From the NCBI RefSeq assembly GCF_000022085.1, contig NC_011892.1:423735-487734 (forward strand): a stretch of DNA of 64,000 nucleotides, in the 5' to 3' direction. The stretch is from Methylobacterium nodulans ORS 2060. Its GTDB lineage: Bacteria > Pseudomonadota > Alphaproteobacteria > Rhizobiales > Beijerinckiaceae. A program made the translations under genes and the position numbers. Positions within the stretch are counted from its first letter, which is position 1, and the number at the start of each line of letters is the position of its first letter. The notes beneath the pieces were generated by a model. That model saw nothing but the letters and a program-made list of their open reading frames with translations, made no database searches and was not told the DNA's origin. Below are positions 23,969 to 44,313 of the stretch, piece by piece.

Positions 23969-26137
23969 ATGGCCCTTGTAGCTCGGAAGCACCCGACACC
24001 GCACGTGTACGCTAACGGCCACGCCGAAGTCCGCGCTATCTTGGATCGTGTGAAGGCGGAAAGCCGCGATTCGCTCACTGCCCCCGAAGGTCGCCTCGTC
24101 TGCGACGCCTATGGCATTCCGGTGCCGAAGGAGGCTGTCGCGACCTCGGCCGAAGCCGCAGTGCAGGCTGCGGAGGAAATGGGCTTCCCCGTCGTCCTCA
24201 AGATCGTCTCGCCCGACATCCTGCATAAGACCGAAGCCGGCGGCGTCATCGTGGGCGTCTCGTCCGCGCAGGCCGTGGCCGACGGCTACAAGACCATCCT
24301 GGCGAACGCAAAGCGCTACAAAGCCGACGCACGCATTGATGGCGTGCAGATTCAGCAGATGCTGAAGGGCGGCACCGAGGTCATCATTGGCGCGGTCACG
24401 GACGGATCCTTCGGCAAGCTCGTCGCTTTCGGCCTCGGCGGTATACTGGTTGAGGCGCTGAAGGACATCACCTTCCGGCTCGCGCCCGCCACTCGTGAGG
24501 ACGCCCTTTCGATGCTCGACGGCATTCAAGCCGCCGAAATGCTGAAAGGCGTTCGCGGCTCCGAACCCGTCGACCGCGCGGCGCTGGTCGATGTCATTGT
24601 CAAGGTCTCGCAACTCGTTACAGACTTTCCCGAGATCTCGGAGCTCGACCTCAACCCGGTCTTCGCCTCAGCGCGCGGTGCGACTGCCGCGGACGTACGC
24701 ATCGTCATGGATTTTTCGGAGAAGCCCAAGTCTCAGACGCGGTCGCAAGATGAGATCGTAGCCGGGATGAACCGCATCATGCGCCCGGAAACAGTGGCGG
24801 TGATCGGCGCCTCGGCCGAGGATGGCAAGATCGGCAATTCCGTGATGAAGAACCTCATCAGTGGCGGCTATAAGGGCACGATCTATCCAATTCACCCAAA
24901 GGCCGACACGATCCTGGGCCTGAAGGCCTACAGGTCGGTGAGGGACGTGCCGGGCCCCATCGACGTAGCCGTCTTCGCGATCCCTGCCCAGTTCGTGGCC
25001 GCGGCGCTCACGGAATGCGGCGAGAAGGGTGTGGCGGGCGCGGTCCTCATCCCGTCAGGGTTTGCCGAGACCGGCAACGAGGCGGGTCAGCAGGAGATCC
25101 AGGAGATCGGGCGCCGCTACAACATCCGCCTAATGGGGCCGAATATCTACGGCTTCTACTACATGGCGAAAAATCTCTGCGCGACCTTCTGCACGCCCTT
25201 CGACGTGCAGGGCCAGGCGGCACTGTCGTCTCAATCCGGCGGCATCGGCATGGCCATCATCGGCTTCTCGCGCTCGACCAAGATGGGCGTCTCGGCGATC
25301 GTCGGCCTCGGTAACAAGTCCGATATCGACGAGGACGACCTGCTCGCCTTCTTCGAGCAGGACGACTCGACCAAAGTCATCGCTCAGCACTGCGAGGATC
25401 TGAAGGATGGCCGCAGCTTTGCCGAGGTCGCGCGTCGTGTCTCGAAGAAGAAACCCGTTATCGTGCTGAAGGCCGGCCGCACCTCGGCGGGTGCGAAGGC
25501 GGCGAGTTCCCACACAGGAGCGCTAGCCGGTAACGACAAGATCTACGAGGACGTGTTCAAGCAGTGCGGCGTCATCCGGGCCCGCTCGCTTCGCCAGCTT
25601 CTCGAATTCGCCCGTGGCGTGCCGGTGCTGCCGACCCCGAAAGGCGAGAACGTGGTCATCATCACGGGCGCGGGCGGCTCCGGCGTGCTCCTGTCCGATG
25701 CGGTCGTCGACAACGGCCTGTCGCTGATGACGATGCCCGAGGATCTCGATGCTGCGTTTCGGAAATTCATCCCGCCCTTCGGAGCGGCTGGCAACCCCGT
25801 CGACATCACGGGCGGCGAGCCGCCGGTTACCTACAAGAACACTATCCGCCTCGGGCTTGAGGACGAGCGCATTCATGCGCTCATTCTGGGCTACTGGCAC
25901 ACCATCATCACGCCGCCGATGGTGTTTGCTAAGAATGTCGTGGACGTCCGCGATGAGATGCGCGCCAAGGGCATAGAGAAGCCGATCGTTGCCTCGCTCG
26001 CCGGAGACGTGCAGGTCGAGGAGGCCTCACAGTACCTCTATGACCACGGTATCCCGTCCTATCCCTACTCCACCGAGTTGCCCGTCGAGGTGTTAGGGGC
26101 GAAGTACAGGTGGGCGCGCGGCGCAGGCCTGCTCTAG
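23969..26137 (+). CDS. ADP-forming acyl-CoA synthetase (acetate--CoA ligase family), fused subunits
   Basis: ATG 23969 follows ACAGGAGGAACGACG and gives 722 residues. The ATP-grasp part comes first (about 25-240: FPVVLKIVSPDILHKTEAGG, QMLKGGTEVIIG). A CoA-binding Rossmann domain follows (MRPETVAVIGASAEDGKIGN). Then comes the ligase domain with SQSGGIGMAI and the phospho-histidine motif KAASSHTGALAGNDK. This beta-then-alpha order is known from NDP-forming acyl-CoA synthetases. The reaction is acid + CoA + ATP to acyl-CoA + ADP + Pi, reversible. It lies 168 bp after frc on the same strand and probably supplies or drains the acyl-CoA used there, but its acid substrate is not readable from sequence. 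Confidence 0.85.
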   Translation: MALVARKHPTPHVYANGHAEVRAILDRVKAESRDSLTAPEGRLVCDAYGIPVPKEAVATSAEAAVQAAEEMGFPVVLKIVSPDILHKTEAGGVIVGVSSAQAVADGYKTILANAKRYKADARIDGVQIQQMLKGGTEVIIGAVTDGSFGKLVAFGLGGILVEALKDITFRLAPATREDALSMLDGIQAAEMLKGVRGSEPVDRAALVDVIVKVSQLVTDFPEISELDLNPVFASARGATAADVRIVMDFSEKPKSQTRSQDEIVAGMNRIMRPETVAVIGASAEDGKIGNSVMKNLISGGYKGTIYPIHPKADTILGLKAYRSVRDVPGPIDVAVFAIPAQFVAAALTECGEKGVAGAVLIPSGFAETGNEAGQQEIQEIGRRYNIRLMGPNIYGFYYMAKNLCATFCTPFDVQGQAALSSQSGGIGMAIIGFSRSTKMGVSAIVGLGNKSDIDEDDLLAFFEQDDSTKVIAQHCEDLKDGRSFAEVARRVSKKKPVIVLKAGRTSAGAKAASSHTGALAGNDKIYEDVFKQCGVIRARSLRQLLEFARGVPVLPTPKGENVVIITGAGGSGVLLSDAVVDNGLSLMTMPEDLDAAFRKFIPPFGAAGNPVDITGGEPPVTYKNTIRLGLEDERIHALILGYWHTIITPPMVFAKNVVDVRDEMRAKGIEKPIVASLAGDVQVEEASQYLYDHGIPSYPYSTELPVEVLGAKYRWARGAGLL

Positions 26138-27295: not shown

Positions 27296-27604
27296 GGAGG
27301 CGGCGAGGCGGGCGAGCACAGGCTGCACCAGCGTCGGCGTCCAGGACTTCAAGCCTTGCCCTTCAGGCTTCCACCATCCGCTTGGCCGCAGCGGCGCCGA
27401 ACATTTGCGGGAGACGATGGCGAAGGGCGAGAGCACATACACTTCTGCGCGCACTTCTACGCACCGGCCATCTTGGGAATCATCCTACTATGCTGTCCAG
27501 GCGAAGCGCCGTTTTCACGCAGCCTCGACTCATTGAGCGTCGGGATACCGGCGGCGAAGGCCCTCAACGGTAACACGCCGTGGCCCTTCGCCTGATCCGT
27601 CAGC
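27296..27604. other. 309-bp stretch without a recognised gene
   Basis: This lies between the small plus-strand gene and the end of the phosphoketolase gene. A minus-strand snippet (GLKSWTPTLVQPVLARLA) looks protein-like but has no continuation. Confidence 0.35.
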
Positions 27605-30106
27605 TCATGGACTGCCAGCCGGCTTCGTGCTCCCCCCGGTCCGCCCCATGGTTGCGCGGGCGCCCGCCTCGTCCGGCTTCACCATGCCCGGCTGCGGCCA
27701 GCGCCAGTCCCGGATCTCCGGCAGGTCCTCGCCGGTCCGACAGACATGCGCGCGATGGACGGCGAGCCGCTCCTGCAGCATGCGCTCGGCGCGGTCCGCC
27801 CGGGCGCCGAGGCGCGGCACCCGACGCAAGGCTGCGATCGCGAGATGGTGACGGTCGAGACGGTTCATCACAGCCATGTCGAAGGGCGTCGTCGTCGTGC
27901 CCTCCTCCATGAAACCGTGCACATGCAGGTTCGCGTGGTTGGTGCGCCGGTAGGTCAGCCGATGGATCAGCCAGGGATAACCGTGATAGGCGAACACCAC
28001 CGGGCGGTCCCGCGTGAACAGGCCGTCGAAGGTCGCATCGTCGAGCCCGTGCGGGTGGAGGTCGGGCGAGGGCAGCGTCATCAGGTCGACGACGTTCACC
28101 ACCCGCACCCGTAGATCGGGAACGACCCGGCGCAGCCAGTCCACCGCTGCCAGGGTCTCCATCGTGGGCACGTCGCCCGCGCAGGCCATCACCACGTCGG
28201 GCTCGCCCTCCCCTTCGGACGAGGCCCAGTCCCAGACGCCGATGCCCGCCTCGCAATGGCGCAAAGCTGCGTCGAGAGCGAGCCATTGGGGCGCGGGCTG
28301 CTTGCCGGCCACGACCACGTTGATGCGGTCATGCGTGCCCAGGCAGTGATTCATCACCCACAGCAGGCAATTGGCGTCCGGCGGCAGGTAGACCCGAGCC
28401 GTGTCGCCGCGCTTGTTGGCGATGAAGTCGATGAAGCCGGGATCCTGATGGCTGAATCCGTTGTGGTCCTGGCGCCAGACATGGGAGGACAGCAGGAGGT
28501 TCAGCGACGGGACCGGCCGGCGCCAGGGCAGCGCGCGGGAGGATTTGAGCCACTTGGCGTGCTGGCTCACCATCGAGTCGACCACGTGGATGAAGGCCTC
28601 GTAGCTCGCGAACAGGCCGTGGCGGCCGGTCAGCAGGTAGCCTTCGAGCCAGCCCTCGCAGAGCTGCTCGCTCAAGATCTCCATGACCCGCCCGGACCGG
28701 GCGAGATGGTCGTCGCCCGGCAGGATCTCCTCCTGCCAGACCCGGTTCGTCACGGACAGAACGGCGTCGAGGCGGTTCGAGGCGGTCTCGTCGGGACCCA
28801 TGATCCGGAAGTTCCGGCTCGCGGCGTTGAGGGTGACGACATCGCGCAGATAGGCGCCGAGCACCCGCGTCGCCTCGGCCGTGGCGGCCCCGGGCGCCTC
28901 GACCGCGACCGCGTGAGCGGCGATGGGGGGCCGGCGGAGCGGCTGGGCGTGGCGCCCGCCATTCGCCTGCGGGTTGGCGGAGAGCCGCCGCTCGCCCGCC
29001 GGCGCCAGGGCGGCCAGGTCCGGCATAAGACGTCCCGCGGCGTCGAACAGGGTCTCGGGATGGTAGGAGCGCATCCAGCGCTCGAGGATCGCCAGGTGCT
29101 CCGGGTTGTCGCGCATGGCGGCCACTGGAACCTGATGCGAGCGCCACGTCCCCTCGACGGGCAGGCCGCCGACGACCTTCGGGCCGGTCCAGCCTTTCGG
29201 GCTGCGCAGCACGATCATGGGCCAGCGCGGCCGCTCGCAGCCGGCCTCGCGCCGGATTTGCGCGATGCGGTCGAGCGCGCGGTCGAGCGCCGCCGCCATC
29301 GCCTGATGCATCGGCGCCGTCTCCTCGCCGGCGACGACGATTGGATCGTAGCCGTAGCCGACGAGCAGGCTCGTCAGCTCAGCCCCGGGCATGCGTGCCA
29401 GGATCGTCGGATTGGCGATCTTGTAGCCGTTGAGATGGAGGATCGGCAGGACAGTGCCGTCCGTCCGCGGGTCGAGGAACTTCGCCGAGTGCCAGGAGGC
29501 GGCGAGCGCCCCCGTCTCGGCCTCGCCGTCGCCCACCACGCAGGCGACGATCAGGTCCGGATTGTCCAGGGCGGCCCCGAAGGCATGGGCGAGCGAGTAG
29601 CCGAGCTCTCCGCCCTCGTGGATCGAGCCGGGCAGTTCGGGCGAGGCGTGGCTCGGAATCCCGCCCGGGAACGAGAACTGGCGGAAGAGCCGGCGCATTC
29701 CCTCCGCGTCCGGCGCGACGTCGGGGTAGACCTCGCTGTAGGTTCCTTCGAGATAGGCGTTGGCGACAAGCCCCGGCGCCCCGTGGCCCGGCCCCCAGAC
29801 CGCGATCATGTCGAGGTCGCGCCGCCGGATCACCCGGTTCAGGTGGGCGTAGATGAAGTTGAGGCCGGGCGTGGTGCCCCAATGGCCGAGCAGCCGCGGC
29901 TTGACATGCGCGGGGGCGAGCGGCTCGCGCAGGAGCGGGTTGTCGAGAAGGTAGATCTGACCGACCGACAGGTAGTTCGCGGCCCGCCAATAGGCATCGA
30001 GGCCCACCAGCTCCTGGGGGCCGAGCGGACCCGGCACGAAGTCGTCGCGCGCATCCGGCTGCGCGGGGTGCGCATCGTTCCGAGGCGATCCTGTCAGGAC
30101 TGTCAT
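27605..30106 (-). CDS. xfp: Xylulose-5-phosphate/fructose-6-phosphate phosphoketolase
   Basis: ATG 30106 is preceded on its strand by GTGGAGGACGAC, a strong site, and gives 833 residues, close to the family's ~800. Thiamine-diphosphate-enzyme marks are clear: the N-terminal [19 protein letters not shown], the GPGHGAPG and [20 protein letters not shown] blocks, and the cofactor motif [20 protein letters not shown]. Later come [23 protein letters not shown] [18 protein letters not shown] and the C-terminal [13 protein letters not shown]. The enzyme splits xylulose 5-phosphate or fructose 6-phosphate with phosphate to acetyl phosphate plus an aldose phosphate. It lies 109 bp downstream of the universal stress gene on the same strand, probably in one operon. 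Confidence 0.95.
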
Positions 30107-30215
30107 GTCGTCCTCCACCACACCGGCCGGCAAATGTCGCGCGGCCTCAGCCGGAAGTTTTATGGTCGGGACGGCTTCCGTCTTGATGGATCACCGTCCG
30201 CGGCGATCGGGCACC

Positions 30216-31058
30216 TCAGTGCGAGAGGAGCAGGGGGACCGGGCAGGCGGTGAGGAGCGCCTCCGTCACCCCGCCGAGCACCATCTCGCGCAGGCGGGCA
30301 TGCACGAAGCCTCCCGCCACCATCAGGTCGGCGCGGGACAGGATCGCATGGCGCCGCAGCGTCTCGGCGACGCTCCCCTCCTCCATGGGCAGATCCACGA
30401 CCGTGACGGGCACGCCGTGGCGCGCGAGATAGGGGCCGAGTTCGGCGCCGGGAACCGTCTCCGAGAGGTCCTTCTCTCCGGTGACCGTCACGACGTGGAC
30501 CTCGCGGGCCCCACGCAGGAAGGGCAGCGCATCGCCGACCGCGCGCGCCGCGGGGGCGCTGCCGTCCCAGGCGACCACGATCCGCTCCGCCGTGAACGCC
30601 TCCGCGGCGGGCGGGACGACCAGCAGGGGGCGGCCGCAATAGAGGATCAGATCCTCGATCAGGCCGCGCCGCGCCGCAACGAAATTCGGCTCCGCATCGA
30701 GCACGGTGACGTCGTGGATGCGCGCCTGGGCGGCGAGGCTCCCGAAGAGCTCGTTCGCGGTGAGGTGCCGCGCCCGTGTGGTGCAGCGCAGGCCAGCCGC
30801 CGACGCGTCGGCCCGCGCCCGCTCCGCCGCCGCCGCGGCGAGGCTGCGCAGCCGGCGGTTCTCGGCGGCCACCAGCGAGGCCGCAAAGCCGCTGATCCAG
30901 GCATTCGGCACGACGATGTCCACCGTCATCGCATGCACGGTGACGTGGGCCTCGGCCTGCAGAGCCAGGGAGAAGCCATAGGCGAGCGCCGCCGAGGGTT
31001 CCTGTGTGCCGATGGCCTCCGTCACTCCGATGAGGACGCTCTTGATCGATGCAATCAT
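30216..31058 (-). CDS. Universal stress protein with two Usp domains
   Basis: ATG 31058 gives 280 residues. The open frame extends upstream to 31172, but that part is basic and has no start signal. Two tandem Usp units are visible. The first starts IKSVLIGVTE and ends DLILYCGRPLLVVPP; the second starts AERIVVAWDGSAPAARAVGD and ends with LMVAGGFVHARLREMVLGGV then CPVPLLLSH. The second unit keeps the ATP-binding G-x2-G-x9-G-like end. Such tandem Usp proteins are often induced at low oxygen or in stationary phase. It is the first gene of the leftward unit with phosphoketolase and is divergent from the P1B-5 ATPase. Confidence 0.9.
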   Translation of the reverse strand: MIASIKSVLIGVTEAIGTQEPSAALAYGFSLALQAEAHVTVHAMTVDIVVPNAWISGFAASLVAAENRRLRSLAAAAAERARADASAAGLRCTTRARHLTANELFGSLAAQARIHDVTVLDAEPNFVAARRGLIEDLILYCGRPLLVVPPAAEAFTAERIVVAWDGSAPAARAVGDALPFLRGAREVHVVTVTGEKDLSETVPGAELGPYLARHGVPVTVVDLPMEEGSVAETLRRHAILSRADLMVAGGFVHARLREMVLGGVTEALLTACPVPLLLSH

Positions 31059-31274
31059 CGCGACGCTGCCTTCCCCAGCACGGCGCCCGTTCCGACGGGC
31101 CCATATCCCGCACCGACCGCGATGATGCCGTGTCCGCGGCGCCGGGCATTGATCCTGCGCAAGCCCCACCAAACAGGGGTTGCAGTGTGGCTATCGCGTG
31201 TCCGCCCAGCCCAGACACGTGCGAACCGACCGGAGCCAGGCATCCGTCAGAAGCAAAGAGCCCGGGGCGGCGAT

Positions 31275-31288
31275 CTGATCCAGATCAA
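31275..31288. promoter_or_regulatory. FNR/FixK-like box in the divergent intergenic region
   Basis: CTGAT-CCAG-ATCAA differs from the TTGAT-N4-ATCAA consensus at one base. It is centred about 70-95 bp before the possible ATPase starts (31351, 31375) and ~220 bp before the universal stress start. A Crp/Fnr-family regulator (FixK, Anr or FNR type) would be the expected binder, giving low-oxygen induction. Confidence 0.5.
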
Positions 31289-31374
31289 GCTGCGTTTCGA
31301 TCGCAGCTCCTAACGTTTGCCGCAAGGAGCCCGATCGGAGCGGCAGGCCAGTGGCGGAAGGCGGCGATGCATTG

Positions 31375-33783
31375 ATGCCGCTGGACTTGCGCCTGGAAGA
31401 GGTGATGCGGGGGCGGTCAGGGATCATCCGTCAGGCGGAGCCAACTCCGGTCATGGCCGAGCACAAGCGCATCCTGGATCTCGCACTGCTGGCCTTCGCT
31501 CTTGCGGGACTGGCCGCCGGACTGGTGGCACGAGGGCTGCACCAGGATGACTGGGCAGCCTGGCTGTTCCTGGCCGGTACCGTGCCGGTGCTCGTCGCCG
31601 TCCTAGCCGACAGCGCCGCGAGCCTGCTGCGGCGAGAGGTTGGGCTCGACATCATCGCACTCGTCTCCATCGGCGGGGCCCTCCTGCTTCACGAGTACGT
31701 CGCCGCAGCCGTCATCGGACTGATGCTCTCGGGCGGCCGGGCACTGGAGGATTTCGCCGATGCGCGGGCGCGCCGGGAAATGTCCGCACTCCTCGCTCGC
31801 GTGCCGAGAACGGCAAACCTCTACGAGGCAGAGCAGCTCAAGGCCGTGCCGCTCGAGAGCGTGCGAGCCGGGGACCGCCTCCTCGTGCGAGCGGGAGAGA
31901 CAGTTCCCGTCGACGGCATCGTGAGCGGAGGCACGGCCGTGCTCGACGAGGCGGCTCTGACGGGTGAGTCGCTGCCTGTGACGCGGGCCCGGAGCGAGCG
32001 TCTGCGCAGCGGCAGCATCAATGCCGGCGCCCCGTTCGACATGGCCGCAACGTCCAGCGCGGCCGACAGCACCTTCGCCGGCATTGTCCGCCTCGTCCAA
32101 GCCGCGCAGGAAGCCAAAGCGCCGTCGGCCCGCCTCGCCGATCGAGCCGCCTTCGTGTTCACGCCGCTGGCGATCGCCCTCGCCGGCGCTGCCTGGGCCT
32201 GGAGCGGAGACCCGGTGCGTGGTCTCGCCGTCCTGGTCGTTGCCACGCCCTGTCCGCTGATCCTCGCTGTGCCCGTCGCCATTGTCTCGGGCCTGTCGCG
32301 TTGCGCCGGACGTGGCGTGCTGGTCAAGGGCGGCGGTGCGCTGGAGCAACTGGCGCGGTTGCGGACGCTGTACCTGGATAAGACCGGTACGCTGACCGGC
32401 GGCCAAGCCCGGGTGGTTGCCGTCGAGACGGAGACGGGAGTGGCGAGCGACGAGGTCCTGCGGGTCGCTGCGAGCCTCGACCAACTCTCCCAGCACGTGA
32501 TCGCCGAGGCTGTTGTCGCGGCGGCCCGTCGCCGCGGCTTGGAGTTGTGCCTCCCGACGAATGTGGAAGAGGAGCCCGGTGCGGGTCTGACAGGCAACCT
32601 GGAGGGCCGGTGCGTTTCGGTGGGGAGCTACGCCTACGTCTCGGCCCGGGCCGGGCAGTCCGATTGGAGCGGGCGCTTCCTGAGGCGCATGGGCTATGAA
32701 GGGGCAACGGGCGTCTTCGTCGCCGCGGAGGGCCGGATGCTGGGCGCAATCCTGCTCGCCGACGAGATCCGCGCGGATTCCGCCCGGGCTCTGCGCCTGC
32801 TGCGCCGGGCCGGCATCGGCCGTGTGGTCATGCTGACCGGCGACCGGCACGACGCCGCCGAGCGGATCGGATCAGCTCTCGGCGTGGACGAGGTCCGGGC
32901 CGAGCAGCAGCCGCAGGACAAGCTCGCGGCCATTGCCGAGGCGAAGACGCAGGGGATCTGCGCCATGGTCGGTGACGGCGTGAACGACGCTCCCGCTCTG
33001 GCCGCCGCCGATATCGGGATCGCCATGGGCGCGCGCGGCTCGGGTGCCTCGTCGGAGGCAGCGTCCGTCGTCCTCCTGGTCGACCGTCTCGATCGCTTGG
33101 CAGACGCGCTTGCCATCGCTCAAGGGGCCCGTCGAATTGCCCTCCGGAGCGTGTGGATCGGCATGGGACTGTCCATCGCAGCCATGGTCGTGGCTGCTCT
33201 CGGGCTCCTTCCGCCCGTGGCCGGAGCTCTGCTGCAGGAGGCCATCGACGTCGCCGCCATTTTCAACGCGCTCCGGGTGCTGCGGGTCCGCATTCCCGGG
33301 CGTCCTCAGGTCAGCCTTCCACTTGCGGAGGTCACGCGCCTGAAGGAGGAGCACGAGCGCCTCATCGGCCCTCTCGCCCGGCTGCGCGCGGTCGCGGACC
33401 AACTGGCAACACTGCCGCCCGACGAGGCGGCCGTGGCGCTGAGGGAGGTCGAGAACCTCGTGCGCGAACGGCTTCTGCGGCACGAGCGCGAGGATGACCT
33501 TCAGCTCTATCCACGCATCGAGCGGGCGCTCGGGGGCGACGATCCGATCGCGGCGATGCACCGAACCCATCGCGAGGTGCAGGAACTGGGCAGCGTGCTG
33601 ACCCGGATGGTGGGGGAGTTGCCACCCGAAGGCATCGACTTGCCTGCGCTGAACGACTTCCGGCGCGTGCTCTACGGGCTCGACGCCATACTGCGGCTCC
33701 ACTTTGCGCAGGAGGACGAACTGTACCACGGCCTCGCCAGCACCGAAGCCGTCCGGCCCGAAAGCCAAGCGGCGCCTGCCTGA
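31375..33783 (+). CDS. P1B-5-type heavy-metal ATPase with C-terminal hemerythrin domain
   Basis: From ATG 31375 (or GTG 31351) the protein has about 800 residues. The N-terminal transmembrane part has no CxxC metal domain. Then come the actuator ALTGESLPV, the TM4 metal motif TPCPLI (TPC, not CPC or SPC), the phosphorylation site LYLDKTGTLTGG, a VMLTGDRH block and hinge MVGDGVNDAPALAAADIGIA. The last ~150 residues form a hemerythrin-like four-helix bundle (KEEHERLIGP, LLRHEREDDLQLYPRIERAL, HRTHREVQELGSV, LHFAQEDELYHGL). TPC plus hemerythrin defines the P1B-5 group, which includes the Ni/Fe exporter Nia of Sinorhizobium. It is therefore likely a Ni2+/Fe2+ exporter, possibly sensing O2 or iron. 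Confidence 0.9.
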   Translation: MPLDLRLEEVMRGRSGIIRQAEPTPVMAEHKRILDLALLAFALAGLAAGLVARGLHQDDWAAWLFLAGTVPVLVAVLADSAASLLRREVGLDIIALVSIGGALLLHEYVAAAVIGLMLSGGRALEDFADARARREMSALLARVPRTANLYEAEQLKAVPLESVRAGDRLLVRAGETVPVDGIVSGGTAVLDEAALTGESLPVTRARSERLRSGSINAGAPFDMAATSSAADSTFAGIVRLVQAAQEAKAPSARLADRAAFVFTPLAIALAGAAWAWSGDPVRGLAVLVVATPCPLILAVPVAIVSGLSRCAGRGVLVKGGGALEQLARLRTLYLDKTGTLTGGQARVVAVETETGVASDEVLRVAASLDQLSQHVIAEAVVAAARRRGLELCLPTNVEEEPGAGLTGNLEGRCVSVGSYAYVSARAGQSDWSGRFLRRMGYEGATGVFVAAEGRMLGAILLADEIRADSARALRLLRRAGIGRVVMLTGDRHDAAERIGSALGVDEVRAEQQPQDKLAAIAEAKTQGICAMVGDGVNDAPALAAADIGIAMGARGSGASSEAASVVLLVDRLDRLADALAIAQGARRIALRSVWIGMGLSIAAMVVAALGLLPPVAGALLQEAIDVAAIFNALRVLRVRIPGRPQVSLPLAEVTRLKEEHERLIGPLARLRAVADQLATLPPDEAAVALREVENLVRERLLRHEREDDLQLYPRIERALGGDDPIAAMHRTHREVQELGSVLTRMVGELPPEGIDLPALNDFRRVLYGLDAILRLHFAQEDELYHGLASTEAVRPESQAAPA

Positions 33784-33914
33784 CAATGCCGGGCTTTGGC
33801 TTAAAGCCGGCTGACACTACGGGTGTCATCCTGGCCCCCCGGGCTAGGGCAAGCCCTCTTACTCCGCCCGGTCCAAATCCGGCCGATCAACTGAGCACCT
33901 CGGTGGGCAATGAA

Positions 33915-36797
33915 ATGACAGAGATCTGGTCGCCGGAGGCCCGCACCGAGTATCTCGAGCAGCAACCGGCAGAGCCCTATCGCCTCGGCACGGAAGAGGT
34001 CCTCACGGTCCTGTGCGTCGATAAAGGCGCTGGGCTGAGCCGGAGAGAAGCACGCTCGCGCCTTGAGCGCTGCGGCAAGAACGAACTGCGCGCTGAAGAG
34101 CCCGTGCCCGCATGGCGCAAGTTCCTCGCCCAGTTCACGGACGTCCTCGTCGTGCTGCTCCTCGTCGCTGCGGTCGTCTCCGCAGGGCTGTGGCTGTACG
34201 AGCGCGATGCCGCTCTGCCCTACGAAGCCATCGCGATCTTCGCCATCGTGCTTCTCAACGCGGTGATGGGCTACTGCCAGCAGGCACGTGCCGAGCAGGC
34301 CATCGCTGCCTTGCGGCAGATGTCGGCCGCGCAGGCGAGGGTCATTCGGGACGCGGTGCACCAGACCGTTCCGGCAGCGGAACTTGTGCCGGGTGACATC
34401 ATCCTTCTCGAAGAGGGCGACACCGTTCCGGCCGACGCACGCCTCATCCAGTCGACCGCGCTGCAAACCGCGGAAGCAGCCCTGACAGGCGAGAGCCTGC
34501 CGGTGCGCAAGGACACTGCGACCGTCACTGGCGAGGTGGAACTCGGCGACCGCCATAACATGATCTACAGCGGCACTGCAGTGACCTACGGGCGTGGGCT
34601 GGCCGCCGTGACAGCAACCGGAATGCGAACCGAGATGGGGCGCATCGCGGGAATGCTGAGGGCTGCGCAGGACGAGACCACGCCTCTGCAGACGGAACTC
34701 ACTCGCGTTGGCAAGCTGCTCGGGCTCGTCGTCATTGCAATTGCCGTCGTGATGATCGCGGCGATCCTCTTCGTCGAGGATATCCAGGGAGTCTCCGCCC
34801 TCTTCGATGTGCTCATCCTGGGTGTGGCGCTCGCGGTCGCGGCGGTTCCCGAAGGTTTGCCGGCGATTGTCACCGCGGCGCTATCCCTGGGCGTGCAACG
34901 CATGGCCCAGAAGAAGGCCATCGTGCGCCACCTCGCGGCCGTGGAGACCCTCGGCTCGGCCGAAGTCATCGCGACCGACAAGACCGGTACGCTCACCAAG
35001 AACGAGATGACCGTGCGCGCCGTCGCGACGGCAAGCGGGCACGTCACCGTCAGCGGTATCGGCTACGCTCCCGTGGGACAGCTTACCCGGGACGATGGCG
35101 GTGATCTCGACGAATTGCTTCGGTCCGAAGTTGAGTGTGCTCTCTTCGCTGCTGAACAGGCCAACAATGCTGCCCTGCAGGAGCACGACGGGCGCTGGAT
35201 CGTGCAGGGTGATCCGACCGAAGGTGCGCTGATCGTTGCGGCGCGCAAGGCGGGCCTGGAGGCCGCGGCACTCGGCAATCGCTTCGTGCGCATAGCCGAG
35301 ATTCCGTTCTCATCCGAGCGCAAGCTGATGAGCACGGTTCACAGCGATGCCGAACACCAAGAGCATGTCTTCATCGCCACGAAGGGCGCTCCGGATGTTC
35401 TGCTCGCACGCTGTTCACACGAGTTCGTGGGTCGGCACCCGCGCGCGCTGACGGAGGAGCGTCGCAACGAGATTTTGGCAACGAACGAGGAACTGGCCGG
35501 CAAAGCACTCCGGACGCTCGCGGTCGCCTCCCGCTCGCTCCCGAAGGACAATTTCGGGAGCTCCGCTCCGGACGACGCCGTCGAGCAGGATCTCGTCTTC
35601 CTGGGCCTGATCGGCATGATCGACCCGCCCCGTGAGGAGGCACGTGAGGCGGTCGCGCGTGCGAGAGCGGCCGGCATTCGCCCCATCATGATCACGGGCG
35701 ATCATCCGAGAACCGCTTCGGCGATCGCTGTCGAACTTGGCATCATGGCTGACACCCGCGCCGTCACGGGTGCCCAACTCGAAGGGATGTCGGACGAGGC
35801 GCTGGACCATGCCGTGCGCGACGTATCGGTCTATGCGCGGGTCAATCCCGAGCACAAGCTGAGGATCGTGCAGGCGCTGCAGCGTAACGGCCTGACCGTG
35901 GCCATGACCGGAGACGGAGTGAATGATGCTCCCGCGTTGAAAGCCGCTGATATCGGCGTGGCCATGGGCATGACCGGCACCGATGTGTCCAAGGAAGCGG
36001 CCGACATGGTGCTTGCCGACGACAACTTCGCAACCATTGTCGCAGCTGTCGAGGAAGGCCGAGGAATCTTCTCGAACATCCGTAAGTTTCTGCGATACCT
36101 TCTTTCGTCGAACATCGGTGAAGTCATGACCATGTTCTTCGGAGTCGTGCTGATTGAGGCGCTCGGACTATCCGGGGCGAGCGGTGACAAAGTCGTCCTT
36201 CCGCTGCTGGCCACGCAGATCCTCTGGATCAACTTCGTCACCGACGGCGCACCTGCTCTCGCCCTTGGTGTCGATCCTGTGGATCCGGCGGTGATGAGGC
36301 GGCCCCCTCGGCCGCGGGAAGAGGGAGTACTCACCCCCCGGACATGGGCAGGCATCATCTTTGTTGGTGTGGTGACGGCGGTCGGCACCTTGTTCGTGCT
36401 CGATGCCTCTCTTCCCGGAGGGCTTGTCGAAGGGTCGGGCACATTGCGTTATGCCCAAACGATGGCGTTCACGACGCTCGTGTTGTTTCAGCTTTTTAAC
36501 GTGTTCAACGCGCGCTCGGACGAGGGAAGCGCATTTGAGGGGCTTGATCGGAATGCCTGGCTCTGGGGCGCGATCGCATTGGCGCTCCTCCTGCAAATCG
36601 CGGTCATCTACATTCCCTTCCTTCAGAAGGCGTTCTCGACCGTGAGCCTGAGCGTCTGTGACTGGTTGTTCTGTACGGCTGTCGCAAGCTCGGTGCTGTT
36701 ACTGCGCGAGCTGAGTAAAGTGGTGACCCGCGCGATGGACAGGCGCCACAGCTGCATACCAGATCGACTGAGGGGCGCAGGATCGATGAATAGCTGA
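33915..36797 (+). CDS. P2A-type cation-transporting ATPase (Ca2+-ATPase-like)
   Basis: ATG 33915 gives 960 residues; the frame is open from 33786, but that stretch is proline-rich and unlike the family. Domains in order: cation ATPase N-terminus (YRLGTEEVLTVL), TM1-2, actuator TAEAALTGESLPVRKD, TM4 VPEGLPAIVTAALSLG, phosphorylation site ATDKTGTLTKNEMTV near residue 354, nucleotide domain, hinge AMTGDGVNDAPALKAADIGV, then TM5-10 with LLSSNIGEVMTMFFGV and ILWINFVTDGAPALALGVDP. The TM4 and TM6 acidic residues fit calcium or a similar cation. It follows the P1B-5 gene by 131 bp on the same strand and may be cotranscribed. Confidence 0.92.
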   Translation: MTEIWSPEARTEYLEQQPAEPYRLGTEEVLTVLCVDKGAGLSRREARSRLERCGKNELRAEEPVPAWRKFLAQFTDVLVVLLLVAAVVSAGLWLYERDAALPYEAIAIFAIVLLNAVMGYCQQARAEQAIAALRQMSAAQARVIRDAVHQTVPAAELVPGDIILLEEGDTVPADARLIQSTALQTAEAALTGESLPVRKDTATVTGEVELGDRHNMIYSGTAVTYGRGLAAVTATGMRTEMGRIAGMLRAAQDETTPLQTELTRVGKLLGLVVIAIAVVMIAAILFVEDIQGVSALFDVLILGVALAVAAVPEGLPAIVTAALSLGVQRMAQKKAIVRHLAAVETLGSAEVIATDKTGTLTKNEMTVRAVATASGHVTVSGIGYAPVGQLTRDDGGDLDELLRSEVECALFAAEQANNAALQEHDGRWIVQGDPTEGALIVAARKAGLEAAALGNRFVRIAEIPFSSERKLMSTVHSDAEHQEHVFIATKGAPDVLLARCSHEFVGRHPRALTEERRNEILATNEELAGKALRTLAVASRSLPKDNFGSSAPDDAVEQDLVFLGLIGMIDPPREEAREAVARARAAGIRPIMITGDHPRTASAIAVELGIMADTRAVTGAQLEGMSDEALDHAVRDVSVYARVNPEHKLRIVQALQRNGLTVAMTGDGVNDAPALKAADIGVAMGMTGTDVSKEAADMVLADDNFATIVAAVEEGRGIFSNIRKFLRYLLSSNIGEVMTMFFGVVLIEALGLSGASGDKVVLPLLATQILWINFVTDGAPALALGVDPVDPAVMRRPPRPREEGVLTPRTWAGIIFVGVVTAVGTLFVLDASLPGGLVEGSGTLRYAQTMAFTTLVLFQLFNVFNARSDEGSAFEGLDRNAWLWGAIALALLLQIAVIYIPFLQKAFSTVSLSVCDWLFCTAVASSVLLLRELSKVVTRAMDRRHSCIPDRLRGAGSMNS

Positions 36798-36816
36798 AGG
36801 ATGACGACACTAGAGC

Positions 36817-36856
36817 GCTCCCCGCCGAAGTGGATACCGGTTCGGCGTGAGGGAGC
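36817..36856. repeat. Interspersed palindromic element, second copy
   Basis: The dyad GCTCCC...GGGAGC with inner CGCCGAA...TTCGGCG encloses the same core GAAGTGGATACCGGTTC (36827-36843) as at 26155. The arms differ in sequence but stay self-complementary, which points to selection on the hairpin and not only on the sequence. Confidence 0.7.
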
Positions 36857-36876
36857 ACGAAAAATAAAAGGCTTAG

Positions 36877-36912
36877 GAGCCGTGCCCGTTTCCGTTGAAA
36901 CGGGCACGGCTC
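36877..36912. terminator. Perfect 16-bp hairpin between the ATPase and HAD genes
   Basis: GAGCCGTGCCCGTTTC and GAAACGGGCACGGCTC are separated by CGTT. There is no long T run, but strength and position suit the end of the ATPase transcript. A similar GAGCCGTGCCCG motif recurs near 51145. Confidence 0.65.
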
Positions 36913-36989
36913 TCGTCAGCCGGACGCCCGCGTTGGGAAGAGGGACAAGGATCGCCAATTGACAAGCACGCGCATTGGAGGAGGTCACG

Positions 36990-37718
36990 ATGACATCGTC
37001 CAAGACAAAGCCGGATGCCGTCGACAGGGCCTGCATCTTTGACGTCGATGGTGTCCTGCTTGCCTCCCCGCACGAGCGTGCGTGGCGCGAGGCGCTCCGC
37101 GGTTTCGCCGATCCATCGCGCTTCACCACCGCCCTGTATCAGGCCTATGTCGCCGGCAAGCCGCGGCTCGACGGCGCCTTTGCGGGCCTGACCGCCTTGG
37201 GTTTACCCGATGCGCAGCGCCTTGCGGCGGCATATGGCGAGGCAAAGCAGCGTTGCCTGGACAGGATCATCGCAGCCGAGGGCGTCGCGGCATTTCCCGA
37301 TGCCCTCCGCTTCGTCCGAGCCCTCACCGAGCGGGGCTGGCGGTTGGCGGCAGCCTCATCCTCGAAGAATGCCGAGAGGATGATGCGGCTGGTGCTCCTG
37401 CACGAGGGCCGGACGCTCCTCGATGCCTTCGTGGTGACCGTCTGCGGTCGCGACCTGCGGCACGGCAAACCCGACCCGGAGATCTTCCTCCTGGCCGCCG
37501 CCGAATTGCAGGTCGGTCCGATGCGATGCATCGTGTTCGAGGATGCGCCTGCGGGCATCCAGGCCGCGCGCGCGGGCCATATGACCGCGATTGGCGTCGC
37601 CAGGCTCGGCGATGCAGCGGGATTGTGGGCAGCCGGCGCCCACCGCGTCGTGGCGAGCCTCGACGAACTCTGCATCGACGACCTCGTCCTGCATCAGCCT
37701 TCCGGAGAAGCGGCATGA
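36990..37718 (+). CDS. pgmB: HAD hydrolase, beta-phosphoglucomutase-like
   Basis: ATG 36990 follows GGAGGAGGTCACG and gives 242 residues. Motif I is CIFDVDGVLLASP, motif II AAASSSKNAERM, motif III GKPDPEIFLLAAAEL, and motif IV VFEDAPAGIQAARAG. A helical cap lies between motifs I and II. The stop overlaps the GH65 start as ATGA. Pairing with a GH65 phosphorylase is the classic arrangement for beta-phosphoglucomutase, which turns beta-glucose 1-phosphate into glucose 6-phosphate. A sugar-phosphatase role is the main alternative. Confidence 0.82.
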   Translation: MTSSKTKPDAVDRACIFDVDGVLLASPHERAWREALRGFADPSRFTTALYQAYVAGKPRLDGAFAGLTALGLPDAQRLAAAYGEAKQRCLDRIIAAEGVAAFPDALRFVRALTERGWRLAAASSSKNAERMMRLVLLHEGRTLLDAFVVTVCGRDLRHGKPDPEIFLLAAAELQVGPMRCIVFEDAPAGIQAARAGHMTAIGVARLGDAAGLWAAGAHRVVASLDELCIDDLVLHQPSGEAA

Positions 37719-40003
37719 TCGTGTCCGGCACCACAGCCCAGGCACTCGTACCAACCGCGGATCCGTCCTGGCTCCTGCGCGAGACAGGATACGAACTCCT
37801 GCGCGAAAGCACCTTCGAGACGCGCTTTGCCATCAGCAATGGCTTTCTGGGCGTGCGGGGCGGGCTCGCGACCCATCTCGGAGCCTGCCGGGCCATCCCG
37901 CCACGCACCTATGTGGCCGGGCTGTTCGACACGCCGACCCCGGACAGTGCGGTGCCGGAACTCGTGCCGGCCGCCGACTGGCTGCAGGTCCGCATCCTGC
38001 TGCCGGACGGTCCTCTGATGCGCTGCCCGAACCGGTCCTCGCGCGCGCTCACCTTGGACATGCGGCGCGGCACGCTGTTCACGGAAGCGCGACAAACCTG
38101 CAACGCCCCTCTCGATGTTCGCCTCCGCACGCTGCGCTTGGTTTCGTTGGACTTACGCGCCATTGGGATGCAGTTGATCGAGCTGGAAATCGAGAACGGT
38201 GTCAGTGACCTCACGCTCGAAGCCAGCTTCGGACCGACAGACTTCGAACTCGCACCGGAGCGAGCGGATCTCGATCTGAAGGCCTGGCGCACTTGGCGGT
38301 CCGGCAGGAGCCTTGCCATTGCGGCGGCGGCTTCGCTTCAGGTCGACGGCACAGAGCGCCAGCCCACTGCACGCGGAGACCTGAGCTGGTCTTGGAGTTG
38401 GACAGCCAGTCCGGGCCAGGTCGTAAGCTTCCAACGCATCATCGCGGTGACGCGGCACCATTCCGTGGATGTTCACTCTGGCGCCAGGGCGCGCAAGGAA
38501 CTGGCCGCCGCACGCACGCTGGGCTGGCAAGGCCTCATCGCCCGGCATGAGGCGGCCTGGGCTGGACGATGGCATTGCAGCGACGTCCGGGTCGAGGGCG
38601 ACCCGGCTGCGCAGGCCGCCTTGCGGTTCGCCATCTTCCACCTGAACGGAGCCGTGAACCCGTCAGACCCACAGGTCTCTGTCGCGGCCCGCGCCCTCAC
38701 GGGCGACGATTACCGCGGCCATGTCTTCTGGGACACCGAGATCTTCCTGCTGCCCTTCTACACGCTGACCTGGCCGGAGGCGGCGCGTACGCTCCTGATG
38801 TACCGCTTTCGCACGTTGGATGCCGCTAGAGCCAAGGCTGCCGCGATGGGCTGGCGGGGAGCCCTCTATGCATGGGAATCTGCGGATATCGGGGACGAAG
38901 TCACACCTAAGCAAACGGTCGGCCCAGACCGCAAGATCCTCGACATTCTCTGCGGTAGCCAAGAGCAGCACATCAGCGCCGATGTCGCCTATGCGGTCTG
39001 GCAGTACTGGCGGGCGACAGAGGACGAGACCTTCCTCCGGGAGGCAGGCGCCGAGATCATCCTGGAGACGGCCCGGTTTTGGGCAGCCCGAGCCGAACCT
39101 GAGGCGGATGGCCTACGCCACATCCGCGGCATCATCGGGCCGGACGAGTACCATGAGGCGGTGGATGACAACGCCTTCACCAACATGATGGCCCGGTGGA
39201 ACATCGAGCGGGGGCTCGACGTAGCAGCCCTGCTGCAAGAACTTTGGCCCGAGACCTGGGACGGCTTATCAGAGCGTCTCGGTCTTGATGAACCGGAGTT
39301 GATTCAGTGGCGCGAGGCTGCGCAGACGATCGTGACCGGTTTCGACCCGGCAACGGGCCTGTTCGAGCAGTTCGCGGGCTTCTCGGCCCTGGAGGAGATT
39401 GATCTGGCGGCCTATTCGGGACGCTCGGTTCCGATGGATGTGGTGCTCGGACGCGAACGGACACAACTGACGCAGGTGATCAAGCAAGCCGATGTGGTCG
39501 CCCTCCTCGCGCTGCTGCCGGAGGTGTTCGCCGGGAGGGCCGCAGAAACGAACTTCGACCATTACGAACCGCGGTGCGGGCACGGCAGTTCGCTGAGCCG
39601 GGCCATGCACGGTATCGCTGCGGCACGACTCGGGCGCTCCGAGACGGCGCTGCAATACTTCCGCCAGAGTGCAGCCATCGATCTTGCCGATACTCATGTG
39701 GCGATCAGTGGCGGTATTCACATTGCGGCTCTTGGCGGTGTGTGGCTGATCGCGATCTTCGGAATTGCCGGGCTGTCGCTGCGCCCCGATGGCTTGGCCT
39801 TCGACCCGCAACTCCCTGAGGCTTGGCGCAGCCTCGAATTCCGCCTCCACTGGAGAGGACGGCACCTGATCGTCACCATCGATCCTGCTGCGCGGGTTTT
39901 CAGAGTGGCCCTTGAGACGGGCTCCGGCATGCCGGTTTACGTGCGGGGAAGCCGGTATCTGGTTTCAGCCGACGAAGCCCTCGCCGTGCCGCTCGATCCT
40001 TAG
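37715..40003 (+). CDS. GH65 disaccharide phosphorylase (trehalose/maltose/kojibiose type)
   Basis: ATG 37715 overlaps the HAD stop; the open frame reaches back to 37082, but only as antiphase sequence of that gene. The 762 residues fit GH65. The N-terminal beta-sandwich starts TGYELLRESTFETRFAISNG then FLGVRGG. The (alpha/alpha)6 barrel carries DDYRGHVFWDTEIFLLPFY, the catalytic acid E478 in IIGPDEYHEAVDDNAFTN, a KQADVV segment and the phosphate-binding RCGHGSSLSRAMHG. Phosphorolysis of an alpha-glucosyl disaccharide gives beta-glucose 1-phosphate for the HAD enzyme. The exact disaccharide cannot be told; trehalose, a common osmolyte, is plausible. Confidence 0.9.
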   Translation: MIVSGTTAQALVPTADPSWLLRETGYELLRESTFETRFAISNGFLGVRGGLATHLGACRAIPPRTYVAGLFDTPTPDSAVPELVPAADWLQVRILLPDGPLMRCPNRSSRALTLDMRRGTLFTEARQTCNAPLDVRLRTLRLVSLDLRAIGMQLIELEIENGVSDLTLEASFGPTDFELAPERADLDLKAWRTWRSGRSLAIAAAASLQVDGTERQPTARGDLSWSWSWTASPGQVVSFQRIIAVTRHHSVDVHSGARARKELAAARTLGWQGLIARHEAAWAGRWHCSDVRVEGDPAAQAALRFAIFHLNGAVNPSDPQVSVAARALTGDDYRGHVFWDTEIFLLPFYTLTWPEAARTLLMYRFRTLDAARAKAAAMGWRGALYAWESADIGDEVTPKQTVGPDRKILDILCGSQEQHISADVAYAVWQYWRATEDETFLREAGAEIILETARFWAARAEPEADGLRHIRGIIGPDEYHEAVDDNAFTNMMARWNIERGLDVAALLQELWPETWDGLSERLGLDEPELIQWREAAQTIVTGFDPATGLFEQFAGFSALEEIDLAAYSGRSVPMDVVLGRERTQLTQVIKQADVVALLALLPEVFAGRAAETNFDHYEPRCGHGSSLSRAMHGIAAARLGRSETALQYFRQSAAIDLADTHVAISGGIHIAALGGVWLIAIFGIAGLSLRPDGLAFDPQLPEAWRSLEFRLHWRGRHLIVTIDPAARVFRVALETGSGMPVYVRGSRYLVSADEALAVPLDP

Positions 40004-40243
40004 AGATTGTACGGGTCCGCGAAGACGGCGTCGTGGTGAATGTCGGGCAGGGAAACGGGCCTCGCGGGTTCGTGCTGCCCGACCCCCGGGAAGGCTCCCT
40101 TCCACCTCCATGCATGCAGCCGCATGTGGGCCAACCCACCTTCCTCAGCGCCTTTGCGGACGATCGCCGTCTGCGCGTCAGTGGCTCATCAAGCAGCGGA
40201 CGCGCGCATCCTGCAGGATCAAGCGAATGGCGCCGCCGAACGC

Positions 40244-40432
40244 TTACTCGCGCAGCCGGCTGTTACCCGACAAGCCGAGGCGAGCGATAATGGTGCCGCT
40301 GAGGATGGCGCTTGCGGCCGGCATCCTCTGCTGGGCGTACCCCCAGACCCAAGGCGAGATGATCAGGAGCGCGCCCAGGCTGAGTCGTACAATGGACGGC
40401 AGAAGCCGAGCCTGTGTTCTATCGTTCGTCAT
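40244..40432 (-). CDS. Small membrane protein with SPW-like motif (62 aa)
   Basis: ATG 40432 is preceded by GAAGGAGGGTCATC. The product has a hydrophobic segment with the SPW signature (LSLGALLIISPWVWGYAQQR). SPW-repeat proteins usually have two such units and about 120 residues, so this looks like a one-unit or truncated member. Function unknown; inner membrane predicted. Confidence 0.6.
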   Translation of the reverse strand: MTNDRTQARLLPSIVRLSLGALLIISPWVWGYAQQRMPAASAILSGTIIARLGLSGNSRLRE

Positions 40433-42742: not shown

Positions 42743-44313
42743 AGGCTGTGTGAGAACGCCTGATCTGCTAAGCTTGTCACCGCTCTGAGGAGGTCGGGAT
42801 GACCCGCTTCATCGCAGGTGAGGATCGTCAGCAGGTCACGCTCCTTCCCGATTGCCTGGACGACTACGTCGCCGCGGACAATCCGGTCCGCCTCGCCGAG
42901 GCGTTCGTTGACGAACTCGACCTCGCCGCTCTCGGCTGTGCGGGAGCTGTGCCGGAGGCGACCGGCCGTCCGGCCTACGATCCGGCGACGCTGCTCAAGC
43001 TCTACCTGTACGGCTACCTCAACCGCATCCCGTCGAGCCGCCGCTTGGAACGCGAGAGCCCGCGCAACCTCGAGCTGATCTGGCTGACCGGCCGGCTGAT
43101 GCCGGACTTCAAGACCCTGGCCGACTTCCGCAAGAACAATGGACCCGCGATCCAGGCCACCTGCGCGCAATTCGTCGTCCTGTGCCGTCGGCTGAACCTG
43201 TTCAGCAAGGCCATCGTCGCGGTCGATGGCAGCAAGTTCAAGGCCGTCAACAACCGCGACAAGAACTTCACGGTGGCCAAGCTCGAGGCCCGTGTGGCCC
43301 AGGTCGAGGCGAGCGTCGCCCGCTACCTCGCCGCCCTGGACCGGGCCGACCGCGAGCCAAGCGATGTGGCCGAGGCTCGGACCGCACGGCTCACCGAGAA
43401 GATCGCAGCCCTGCGCGAGCAGATGCAGGATCTGCAGGCGATGCGGCAGCGGGTCGAGGAGGCGCCCGACCAGCAGGTCGCGCTGACCGATCCCGACGCG
43501 CGCTCGCTGGCCACCCGCGGCAAGGGAACCGGTCTCGTCGGCTACAACGTTCAGGCGGCGGTCGATGTCGAGCACCACCTGATCGTGGCTCACGCCGTGA
43601 CCAACGTCGGCAGCGATCGGGCCCAGCTCGCCCCGATGGGGGTCCTGGCGCAGGAGGCGACCGGCTGCGAGCCGATTACGGTGCTGGCCGACCGGGGCTA
43701 CCTCAACGGCGATCAGGTGCTGGTCTGCGAGGGCACCGGAGTGCTGCCGTGCGTGCCCAAAACCTTGACTTCGGGCAACGTCAAACGCGGGCTCTTCACC
43801 GGGCAGGACTTCATCTACGACGCTCAGAAGGACCACTACACCTGTCCTGCCGGTCAGCATCTGACGAAGGCCCCCGCCCGATCCGATCGTCGGGACGAGA
43901 TCGACCATTATCGCAACCGGACGGCGTGCCCGGCCTGCGCGCTCAAGCCTCGCTGCACGACGGAGGCGGCGCGGCGGATCAAGCGGTGGGTGCACGAGGG
44001 CGTGCTCGATGCGATGCAGGCGAGGCTTGATGGGATGCCGGACGCGATGAAGGTCCGCCGCCAGACCGTGGAGCACCCATTCGGCACGCTGAAGGCCTGG
44101 ATGGGGGCTACGCACTTCCTGACCCGAACGCTAGCGAAGGTCAGAACCGAGATGAGCCTCCAGGTTCTCGCCTACAACATGAAGCGGATGATCCAGATCT
44201 TCGGGGTCGGAGCGCTGATCACGGCGATCCGGGCCTAAGCCCCGTACGCGCGAGCCCGCCGCCAAGGCTCACCCATGAGCCACGTCGACAAAACCCGCGT
44301 TCTCACACAGCCT
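42743..44313 (+). mobile_element. IS1182-family insertion sequence, apparently intact
   Basis: Perfect 17-bp inverted repeats AGGCTGTGTGAGAACGC (42743-42759) and GCGTTCTCACACAGCCT (44297-44313) bracket one intact transposase gene. The flanks carry GCAC on both sides within one base of the ends, a possible 4-bp target duplication. Total length about 1.57 kb. Confidence 0.85.
42799..44238 (+). CDS. IS1182-family transposase
   Basis: The 479 residues are full length. The N-terminal DUF772-type helix domain (DPATLLKLYLYGYLNRIPSS, then RLERESPRNLELIWLTGRL) leads to FKTLADFRKNNG. The DDE core has VAVDGSKFKAVNN, YNVQAAVDVEHHLIVAHAVT and ITVLADRGYLNGDQV. The C-terminus has a four-cysteine segment (YTCPAG, CPACALKPRC) and the glutamate block RRQTVEHPFGTLKAWMG. 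A GGAGG ribosome site is present and no stops interrupt it, so it may be active. Confidence 0.92.
   Translation: MTRFIAGEDRQQVTLLPDCLDDYVAADNPVRLAEAFVDELDLAALGCAGAVPEATGRPAYDPATLLKLYLYGYLNRIPSSRRLERESPRNLELIWLTGRLMPDFKTLADFRKNNGPAIQATCAQFVVLCRRLNLFSKAIVAVDGSKFKAVNNRDKNFTVAKLEARVAQVEASVARYLAALDRADREPSDVAEARTARLTEKIAALREQMQDLQAMRQRVEEAPDQQVALTDPDARSLATRGKGTGLVGYNVQAAVDVEHHLIVAHAVTNVGSDRAQLAPMGVLAQEATGCEPITVLADRGYLNGDQVLVCEGTGVLPCVPKTLTSGNVKRGLFTGQDFIYDAQKDHYTCPAGQHLTKAPARSDRRDEIDHYRNRTACPACALKPRCTTEAARRIKRWVHEGVLDAMQARLDGMPDAMKVRRQTVEHPFGTLKAWMGATHFLTRTLAKVRTEMSLQVLAYNMKRMIQIFGVGALITAIRA

Follow-up and report, generated by a model that had tools for sequence, protein, structure and literature searches.

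A probable low-oxygen, energy-saving gene cassette with FixK/FNR-type boxes on a plasmid-type replicon of Methylobacterium nodulans ORS 2060

We analyzed a 64,000-nucleotide stretch of DNA from Methylobacterium nodulans ORS 2060, here called the window, which comprises bases 423735-487734 of the 487,734-base contig NC_011892.1 in a genome of 8,839,022 bases and 8 contigs. Six neighboring genes in the window, identified with Pfam and NCBIfam profiles, are the subject of this work. From left to right, these encode a phosphoketolase (XFP) and a universal stress protein (USP) on the minus strand, and a P1B-5 ATPase, a calcium-type (Ca-type) ATPase, a beta-phosphoglucomutase (beta-PGM) and a GH65 enzyme on the plus strand (Table 1). 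The initial annotation of this DNA had proposed a low-oxygen or energy cassette of these proteins at 31275..40003, gathered around a divergent region with a one-mismatch FNR/FixK box. The profiles bear out the proteins that it named, with beta-PGM falling under the model cut-offs; four of the genes do lie inside that interval, but those for the USP and the phosphoketolase lie outside it. A RepABC-type RepA is encoded at 14710-15864 of the window, which supports the assignment of the contig to a plasmid-type replicon. The same genome contains nodA, on the 7,772,460-base contig C7.

Table 1. Features of the six-gene cassette, in window coordinates.
Feature	Position	Strand	Basis
xfp, phosphoketolase, 842 residues if the first start is used	27605..30133	-	XFP_N, XFP, XFP_C; NF003621 over its cut-off
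Disrupted FixK-type box before xfp, GTGATCCATCAA	30183..30194	-	Alignment of window, chromosomal copy, G805 and G806; upstream scan
usp, universal stress protein, 280 residues	30216..31058	-	Usp PF00582
FixK2-consensus box TTGCGCAGGATCAA, centre 97.5 nt before USP ATG	31149..31162	-	Motif scan; conservation before USP relatives
FixK/FNR-type box CTGATCCAGATCAA, centre 93.5 nt before P1B-5 ATG	31275..31288	+	Motif scan
Junction at which the upstream region of the CBS-BON gene passes into the P1B-5 gene	31365..31376	+	Comparison with both chromosomal flanks
P1B-5 metal-transporting ATPase with C-terminal hemerythrin-like domain	31375..33783	+	E1-E2_ATPase, Hydrolase, Hemerythrin
Ca-type (P2) cation ATPase	33912..36797	+	Cation_ATPase_N/C, E1-E2_ATPase
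Dispersed, strongly folding repeat of about 104 bp	36810..36913	+	Repeat search; folding
Beta-phosphoglucomutase-like HAD enzyme	36990..37718	+	HAD
GH65 glycoside phosphorylase-like enzyme, overlapping beta-PGM	37712..40003	+	Glyco_hydro_65N/m/C

GH65 phosphorylases have their catalytic Glu in the motif GPDEYHE, along with an HxSSLS motif; the GH65 enzyme of the window, aligned with 3wiq and 4ktr, has GPDEYHE at 476 and HGSSLS at 624. Its nearest solved chain is kojibiose phosphorylase (3wiq), which does not fix the substrate. Beta-PGM scores 127.2 bits against a cut-off of 153.35 for TIGR02009, and is under the cut-offs of the NCBIfam beta-PGM models. The best solved relatives of the Ca-type ATPase are calcium-transporting ATPases (6zhf; lmo0841, 9euq). 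The P1B-5 gene has its ATG at 31375 and an in-frame GTG at 31351, and its product contains the ATPase core motifs DKTG, TGES and GDGxND. TPCP and QExxD are membrane signatures of P1B-5 ATPases, and occur here as TPCP at 291 and QEAID at 621. The hemerythrin-like tail of P1B-5 ATPases has been described as H-HxxxE-HxE-HxxxxD, the HxE element being peculiar to this group (PMC9388753); the tail found here carries EEH, HEREDD, THRE (i.e., HxE) and HFAQED, such that three of the four elements fit and one has Asp in place of Glu at +4.

The FixK2 consensus is TTG(A/C)-N6-(T/G)CAA (PMC9104804). One site in the divergent region between the USP and P1B-5 genes, at 31149-31162 (TTGATCCTGCGCAA), fits this consensus completely and is conserved before USP genes; the initial annotation had missed it, and had cited the box at 31275-31288. 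Both boxes are 14 bp long and lie at promoter-compatible distances, as counted from start codons, not transcription starts. To assess conservation before USP genes, we used relatives at least 44% identical, a threshold of our own choosing, and dropped those under 44% and short matches; the stretches were taken from loci picked for other cassette genes, and are not a random sample. A FixK2-consensus site is present in 21 of these 25 stretches (24 distinct), as compared with 0-1 for 11 permuted patterns, and 20 of the 21 boxes are positioned at -88 to -106. For XFP, we scanned the 500 bp before residue 40 at 58 of 59 places, leaving out one low-identity place, of genome G802, and taking two pieces in G783 as one. 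The palindrome TTGATN4ATCAA, with at most one mismatch, is found at 35 of the 58 places, and each of 19 half-site-permuted palindromes at none. All 35 boxes (33 distinct upstream sequences) belong to the 39 places whose identity is 77% or higher, whereas the 19 examined at 62-72% identity have none; the four high-identity places that lack a box are those of the window, G147, G805 and G806. Because the boxes are conserved before both XFP and USP relatives and the controls are clean, low-oxygen control of a FixK/FNR type is likely. We favor the reading that the six genes are probably a plasmid-borne low-oxygen and energy-saving cassette under such a regulator.

The case for boxes varies between the genes; from these comparisons we judge it strong for USP and XFP, fair for P1B-5 within the genus, and weak for the remainder. 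A FixK2-consensus site lies within 200 bp upstream in 7 of 8 P1B-5 congeners examined (of 36 places in other genomes of the genus), with controls at 0. Two further congeners were G801, with a site near the start, and G805, with none nearby. The P1B-5 matches in these congeners stop at residues 611-674 of 802; that is, the proteins are tail-less. Separately, in loci L035, L037, L039, L044 and L049 (Rhodanobacter, Lysobacteraceae and one proteobacterium), the USP gene is divergent from that for P1B-5, and an FNR-like box lies between the two, nearer to the USP gene.

Elsewhere in the ORS 2060 genome, perfect boxes at C7:6991713 and C7:6991733 precede a phosphotransacetylase-acetate kinase (pta-ackA) pair; this pair is chromosomal, and ackA is not in the window cassette. 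A PAS kinase and a LuxR-type regulator, fixLJ-like by their domains, are paired in a box-rich region; a perfect box lies some 0.75 kb upstream of the pair, and a box with one mismatch immediately after it. Other perfect boxes lie near genes that, as read by eye, putatively encode cbb3 oxidase and nitrate reductase. An ETVSR helix is present in six Crp/Fnr proteins; one of these is encoded inside the chromosomal counterpart of the cassette described below, and its best solved relative is FixK2 (4i2o). Over the whole genome the box count is 141 sites, versus 14 for the reversed pattern; this is weak evidence, since the reversed pattern contains CTA/TAG and may be rare for other reasons. Two side observations were also made: two putative cbb3 oxidase operon copies, identified by eye, have the same perfect box and three open reading frame beginnings that look identical (L062:11083 and L068:8791), and two identical Crp/Fnr-type regulators have a cysteine-rich N-terminus (L176 and L177, i.e., G000:C7:4003864 and C7:5103273).

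The genome contains more than one such cassette: a rearranged near-duplicate is found on C7. The identity of the coding DNA between the two copies is 97.1% for P1B-5, 98.7% for the Ca-type ATPase, 94.0% for USP, 93.8% for XFP, 77.6% for beta-PGM and 78.2% for GH65; these unequal values speak against one clean duplication. On C7, about 6.5 kb with an IS66 transposase and other genes sits between the USP and P1B-5 genes, and the stretch before USP extends to the ATG of a protein with CBS and BON domains (CBS-BON), with a box, TTGATCTGGATCAT, centered 82.5 nt before that ATG. The plasmid copy has the same stretch before USP up to the same point, and then continues into the P1B-5 gene, with a 2-nt overlap (GC) at 31369-31370. 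Thus, by comparison of the two copies, the box at 31275-31288 seems to have come from the CBS-BON gene by promoter capture, and not to have been the original switch of the set. By eye, the locus in G806 can be aligned to the chromosomal copy across the CBS part; this suggests that the arrangement on C7 predates that of the plasmid, and that events may have run in this direction. A further box-like site, with one mismatch, lies at -48 from the chromosomal P1B-5 gene; we also considered kinship of this gene's upstream region with that of the congeners, and the alignment was not convincing. The chromosomal Ca-type ATPase gene (G000:C7:6278599-6281463) matches at 2837 of 2886 coding bases, with one TGA inside the match. 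Mobile elements were noted as well. Window positions 47080-48502 are 99.93% identical to L061:3083-4505, in the insertion that splits the chromosomal cassette, where the chromosomal part encodes an IS66-family transposase; and 42743-44236, just to the right of the plasmid cassette, have 84.8% DNA identity to an IS1182-family transposase record from Methylobacterium sp. DM1.

To examine linkage across the genus, we searched 111 genomes, including that of the window, and scored the best candidates per genome under strict E-value limits. XFP was found in 52 genomes, P1B-5 in 34, the Ca-type ATPase in 24 and GH65 in 16. XFP is present in all 16 genomes with GH65, in all 24 with the Ca-type ATPase and in 32 of the 34 with P1B-5; within 20 kb of XFP lie GH65 in 11 genomes, the Ca-type ATPase in 10 and P1B-5 in 15. 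Fisher p values for co-occurrence with XFP range from 1e-6 to 5e-12 (1.3e-6 for GH65), uncorrected for kinship. All four are on one contig in G820, within about 33 kb, and in G275, within about 53 kb. Co-occurrence elsewhere, on which the initial annotation had staked its proposal, is therefore found. Low-identity XFP genes lie no more than 25 kb from GH65 in 7 of 20 places, and loci L126-L129 have XFP, beta-PGM and GH65 in a row; in L115-L117, XFP and acetate kinase are divergent and have one common box. As to synteny in other Rhizobiales, also suggested by the initial annotation, similar sets do exist on rhizobial plasmids, but the exact six-gene order of the window was seen in none of the other loci inspected. 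Beside beta-PGM-GH65, possible remnants were noted of P1B-5 in L001:10899-11219 (an M. currus plasmid) and of the Ca-type ATPase in L133:9849-10025 (G805), hinting that these genes were perhaps once neighbors there.

In function, the cassette resembles known rhizobial gene sets; its assembly is new. The nia locus (SMa1163) of Sinorhizobium meliloti pSymA, likewise a large plasmid of a nodule bacterium, encodes a P1B-5 ATPase that is 52-53% identical over query residues 31-787, a span that takes in the tail, together with a Ca-type ATPase, a USP (52% in strain 1021) and a partly matching alpha/beta hydrolase, and has FixK2-consensus boxes. Its gene order differs, and within the 20 kb examined none of XFP, GH65 and beta-PGM from the window found a match. 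Left of the window's cassette, at 23969-26137, is a gene for an acetate-CoA ligase of the ADP-forming type, and a distantly similar one (30-37%) adjoins the nia locus. Deletion of nia in S. meliloti CCNWSX0020 altered none of five metal tolerances tested (PMC4932525).

In Bradyrhizobium diazoefficiens, a phosphoketolase-acetate kinase operon with a box at -89 drops about 10-fold without FixK2, and a USP is likewise FixK2-dependent (PMC9104804). The part of that text considered here describes no compact plasmid cassette, tail-bearing P1B-5 ATPase or GH65. The tables of a microoxia study, considered apart from their header, give positive fold values for phosphoketolase, USPs and CBS proteins (PMC6515984). 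In Rhodopseudomonas palustris, deletion of fixK lowers phosphoketolase 9.4-fold in one of six columns; the other columns show changes of at most about 2-fold (PMC3050613). In a comparative study, phosphoketolase and a CBS protein are listed in the block that holds FixL and comes before the FNR block, which we take as FixK; Methylobacterium is assigned there to a group whose FixK regulon is well conserved (PMC2908626).

Plasmids of Shinella, Agrobacterium and Rhizobium leguminosarum all have XFP with acetate kinase. That of Shinella adds USPs and a P-type ATPase; that of Agrobacterium a USP, a CBS protein, a P-type ATPase, a response regulator and a PAS kinase; and that of R. leguminosarum a CBS protein, Hsp20, a response regulator and a PAS kinase, with no USP or P-type ATPase in the stretch. 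The window's P1B-5 and GH65 are unmatched in these three plasmid neighborhoods, and in ORS 2060 ackA is elsewhere. Around the phosphoketolase gene of S. meliloti Ak57 none of the set was seen, which counts against generality. The mycobacterial DosR dormancy regulon includes USPs, a Ca-type ATPase and a HAD-GH65 protein; it belongs to another phylum and has another regulator, and is a lead only. The lxa locus of Burkholderia cenocepacia is a low-oxygen-induced cluster with USPs (PMC3759415, PMC6127331, PMC9733578), likened here by description only; the words phosphoketolase and ATPase are missing from the main text of PMC6127331. Judging from titles and the beginnings of abstracts, we found no paper on the cassette of ORS 2060, and pMNOD01 was not named among those listed.

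The reading that we favor can be spelled out as a mechanism. Upon a fall in oxygen, a FixK-like protein would bind at 31149-31162 and drive usp-xfp leftwards; it would also bind at 31275-31288 and drive the P1B-5 and Ca-type ATPase genes rightwards. XFP would convert sugar phosphates to acetyl phosphate, from which the chromosomal pta-ackA products would make acetate and ATP, and GH65 and beta-PGM would yield glucose 6-phosphate through phosphorolysis of a disaccharide. The two ATPases would keep iron/nickel and calcium balanced. The plasmid form would have come about when the block of these two ATPase genes became fused to the region upstream of the CBS-BON gene, with its box. A bolder extension, which we offer only tentatively and regard as doubtful, is that some methylobacteria have a dedicated route to ATP at low oxygen, a 'phosphorolytic phosphoketolase fermentation', in which GH65 and beta-PGM provide glucose 6-phosphate from a disaccharide without ATP cost, XFP produces acetyl phosphate, AckA generates ATP, and the parts are turned on by FixK. 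The plasmid cassette would then pack most of this route together with ion pumps whose upkeep it would pay, via a captured promoter.

Several results weigh against the favored reading. Within the window, box counts are no better than chance: TTGATN4ATCAA with up to two mismatches has 8 matches versus 7.5 expected, and the FixK2 consensus has 5 sites versus 0-4 for 11 column-permuted controls. That is, the one-mismatch box of the initial annotation exists but is not significant alone, and the motif scan that it proposed gives no excess in the window. The window's own XFP box is disrupted, its spacer (GTGATCCATCAA) being two bases shorter than that of the chromosomal GTGATCCACATCAA, and G805 and G806, the nearest congeners by XFP, have no box with at most one mismatch before XFP. 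The idea of low-oxygen FixK/FNR control, as first proposed, is supported for the USP and XFP orthologues, but the box cited for it seems to be captured and that before the window's xfp is broken. The conservation counts, moreover, are drawn from related sequences and do not represent independent events. Of the hemerythrin-tailed P1B-5 ATPases outside the genus, 1 of 20 has a box. A mixed P1B-5 set from genome contigs (21 of 28 kept, the rest having under 40% identity or too little matched or upstream DNA) gives a box with at most one mismatch in 0 of 21, and one control palindrome in 4. A box shared by hemerythrin-tailed P1B-5 ATPases at large was looked for in these two sets and not found. 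Boxes precede 2 of 14 Ca-type ATPase relatives, 2 of 10 of beta-PGM and 4 of 13 of ackA, after dropping beta-PGM L116 and L117 (too little upstream DNA) and ackA L110, and none is found within 300 bp before the window's beta-PGM. G805 has XFP-USP, Ca-ATPase-USP and GH65-beta-PGM at separate sites, with P1B-5 still within 20 kb of XFP. Finally, a single transcript or promoter for all six genes is doubtful, because the strongly folding, dispersed repeat parts the Ca-type ATPase gene from those for beta-PGM and GH65. This 192-nt gap folds at -84.5 kcal/mol (z -4.18), and the repeat has at least 64 matches in the genome (the best 40 of 143 candidates having been scored), some of which are arm-to-arm matches of the same copies. 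A simple scan of 27400-40300 revealed no sigma-70-like promoter.

Some of these results suit a competing explanation to which we give considerable weight, though less than an even chance: that USP-XFP, and perhaps the P1B-5 and Ca-type ATPases, are oxygen-controlled, and that beta-PGM-GH65 is an independent sugar-utilization unit, adjacent by chance. The hairpin repeat before beta-PGM and the scarcity of boxes before beta-PGM and its relatives are as this would predict; so are loci L125-L129, in which a low-identity XFP adjoins beta-PGM-GH65 and no box precedes XFP, and the 78% identity of the plasmid and chromosomal GH65 genes, versus 97-99% for the ATPases. It does not sit well, however, with the presence of XFP in every GH65 genome, within 20 kb in 11 of 16, nor with the FixK2-consensus site at -153 from the chromosomal beta-PGM, nor with G834, in which boxes lie between beta-PGM and a divergent Ca-type ATPase.

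Were the locus mainly a metal-homeostasis island of the P1B-5 and Ca-type ATPases, with incidental neighbors, one would understand why many stretches around P1B-5 relatives have neither other cassette relatives nor a nearby box (dissimilar USPs would escape this comparison), and why handling of Ni and Fe has been reported for S. meliloti Nia (PMC4932525). We consider this unlikely, given that P1B-5 in the genus is accompanied by XFP in all but two of its genomes, often nearby, and that S. meliloti nia itself adjoins a USP and a Ca-type ATPase. Least probable is that stress genes came together on a plasmid by chance, around a chance box. The ordinary motif statistics of the window, the dispersal of the genes in G805 and the unmatched six-gene order are in its favor, but it is largely refuted by the conserved positions of the boxes before XFP and USP, with their clean controls, and by the recurring linkage in the genus; the same kinds of genes are also found on rhizobial plasmids.

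With low-oxygen control by a FixK/FNR-type regulator as the favored reading, what began as a guess from one box becomes a FixK-type regulon, in this genus, that lends itself to testing; the XFP orthologues that have a box and the low-identity XFP genes that do not make a clean comparison set. Three features are of most interest: the apparently captured promoter, the XFP box that is disrupted in the window, and the repeated association of GH65-beta-PGM with phosphoketolase. One genome holds the same genes twice with differently assembled promoters, a natural experiment in which one promoter seems to have arisen when an ion pump was linked to the box-bearing promoter of another stress gene. The link of GH65-beta-PGM with XFP and AckA, if true, would suggest a way for an aerobic nodule bacterium to obtain ATP when it is not respiring.

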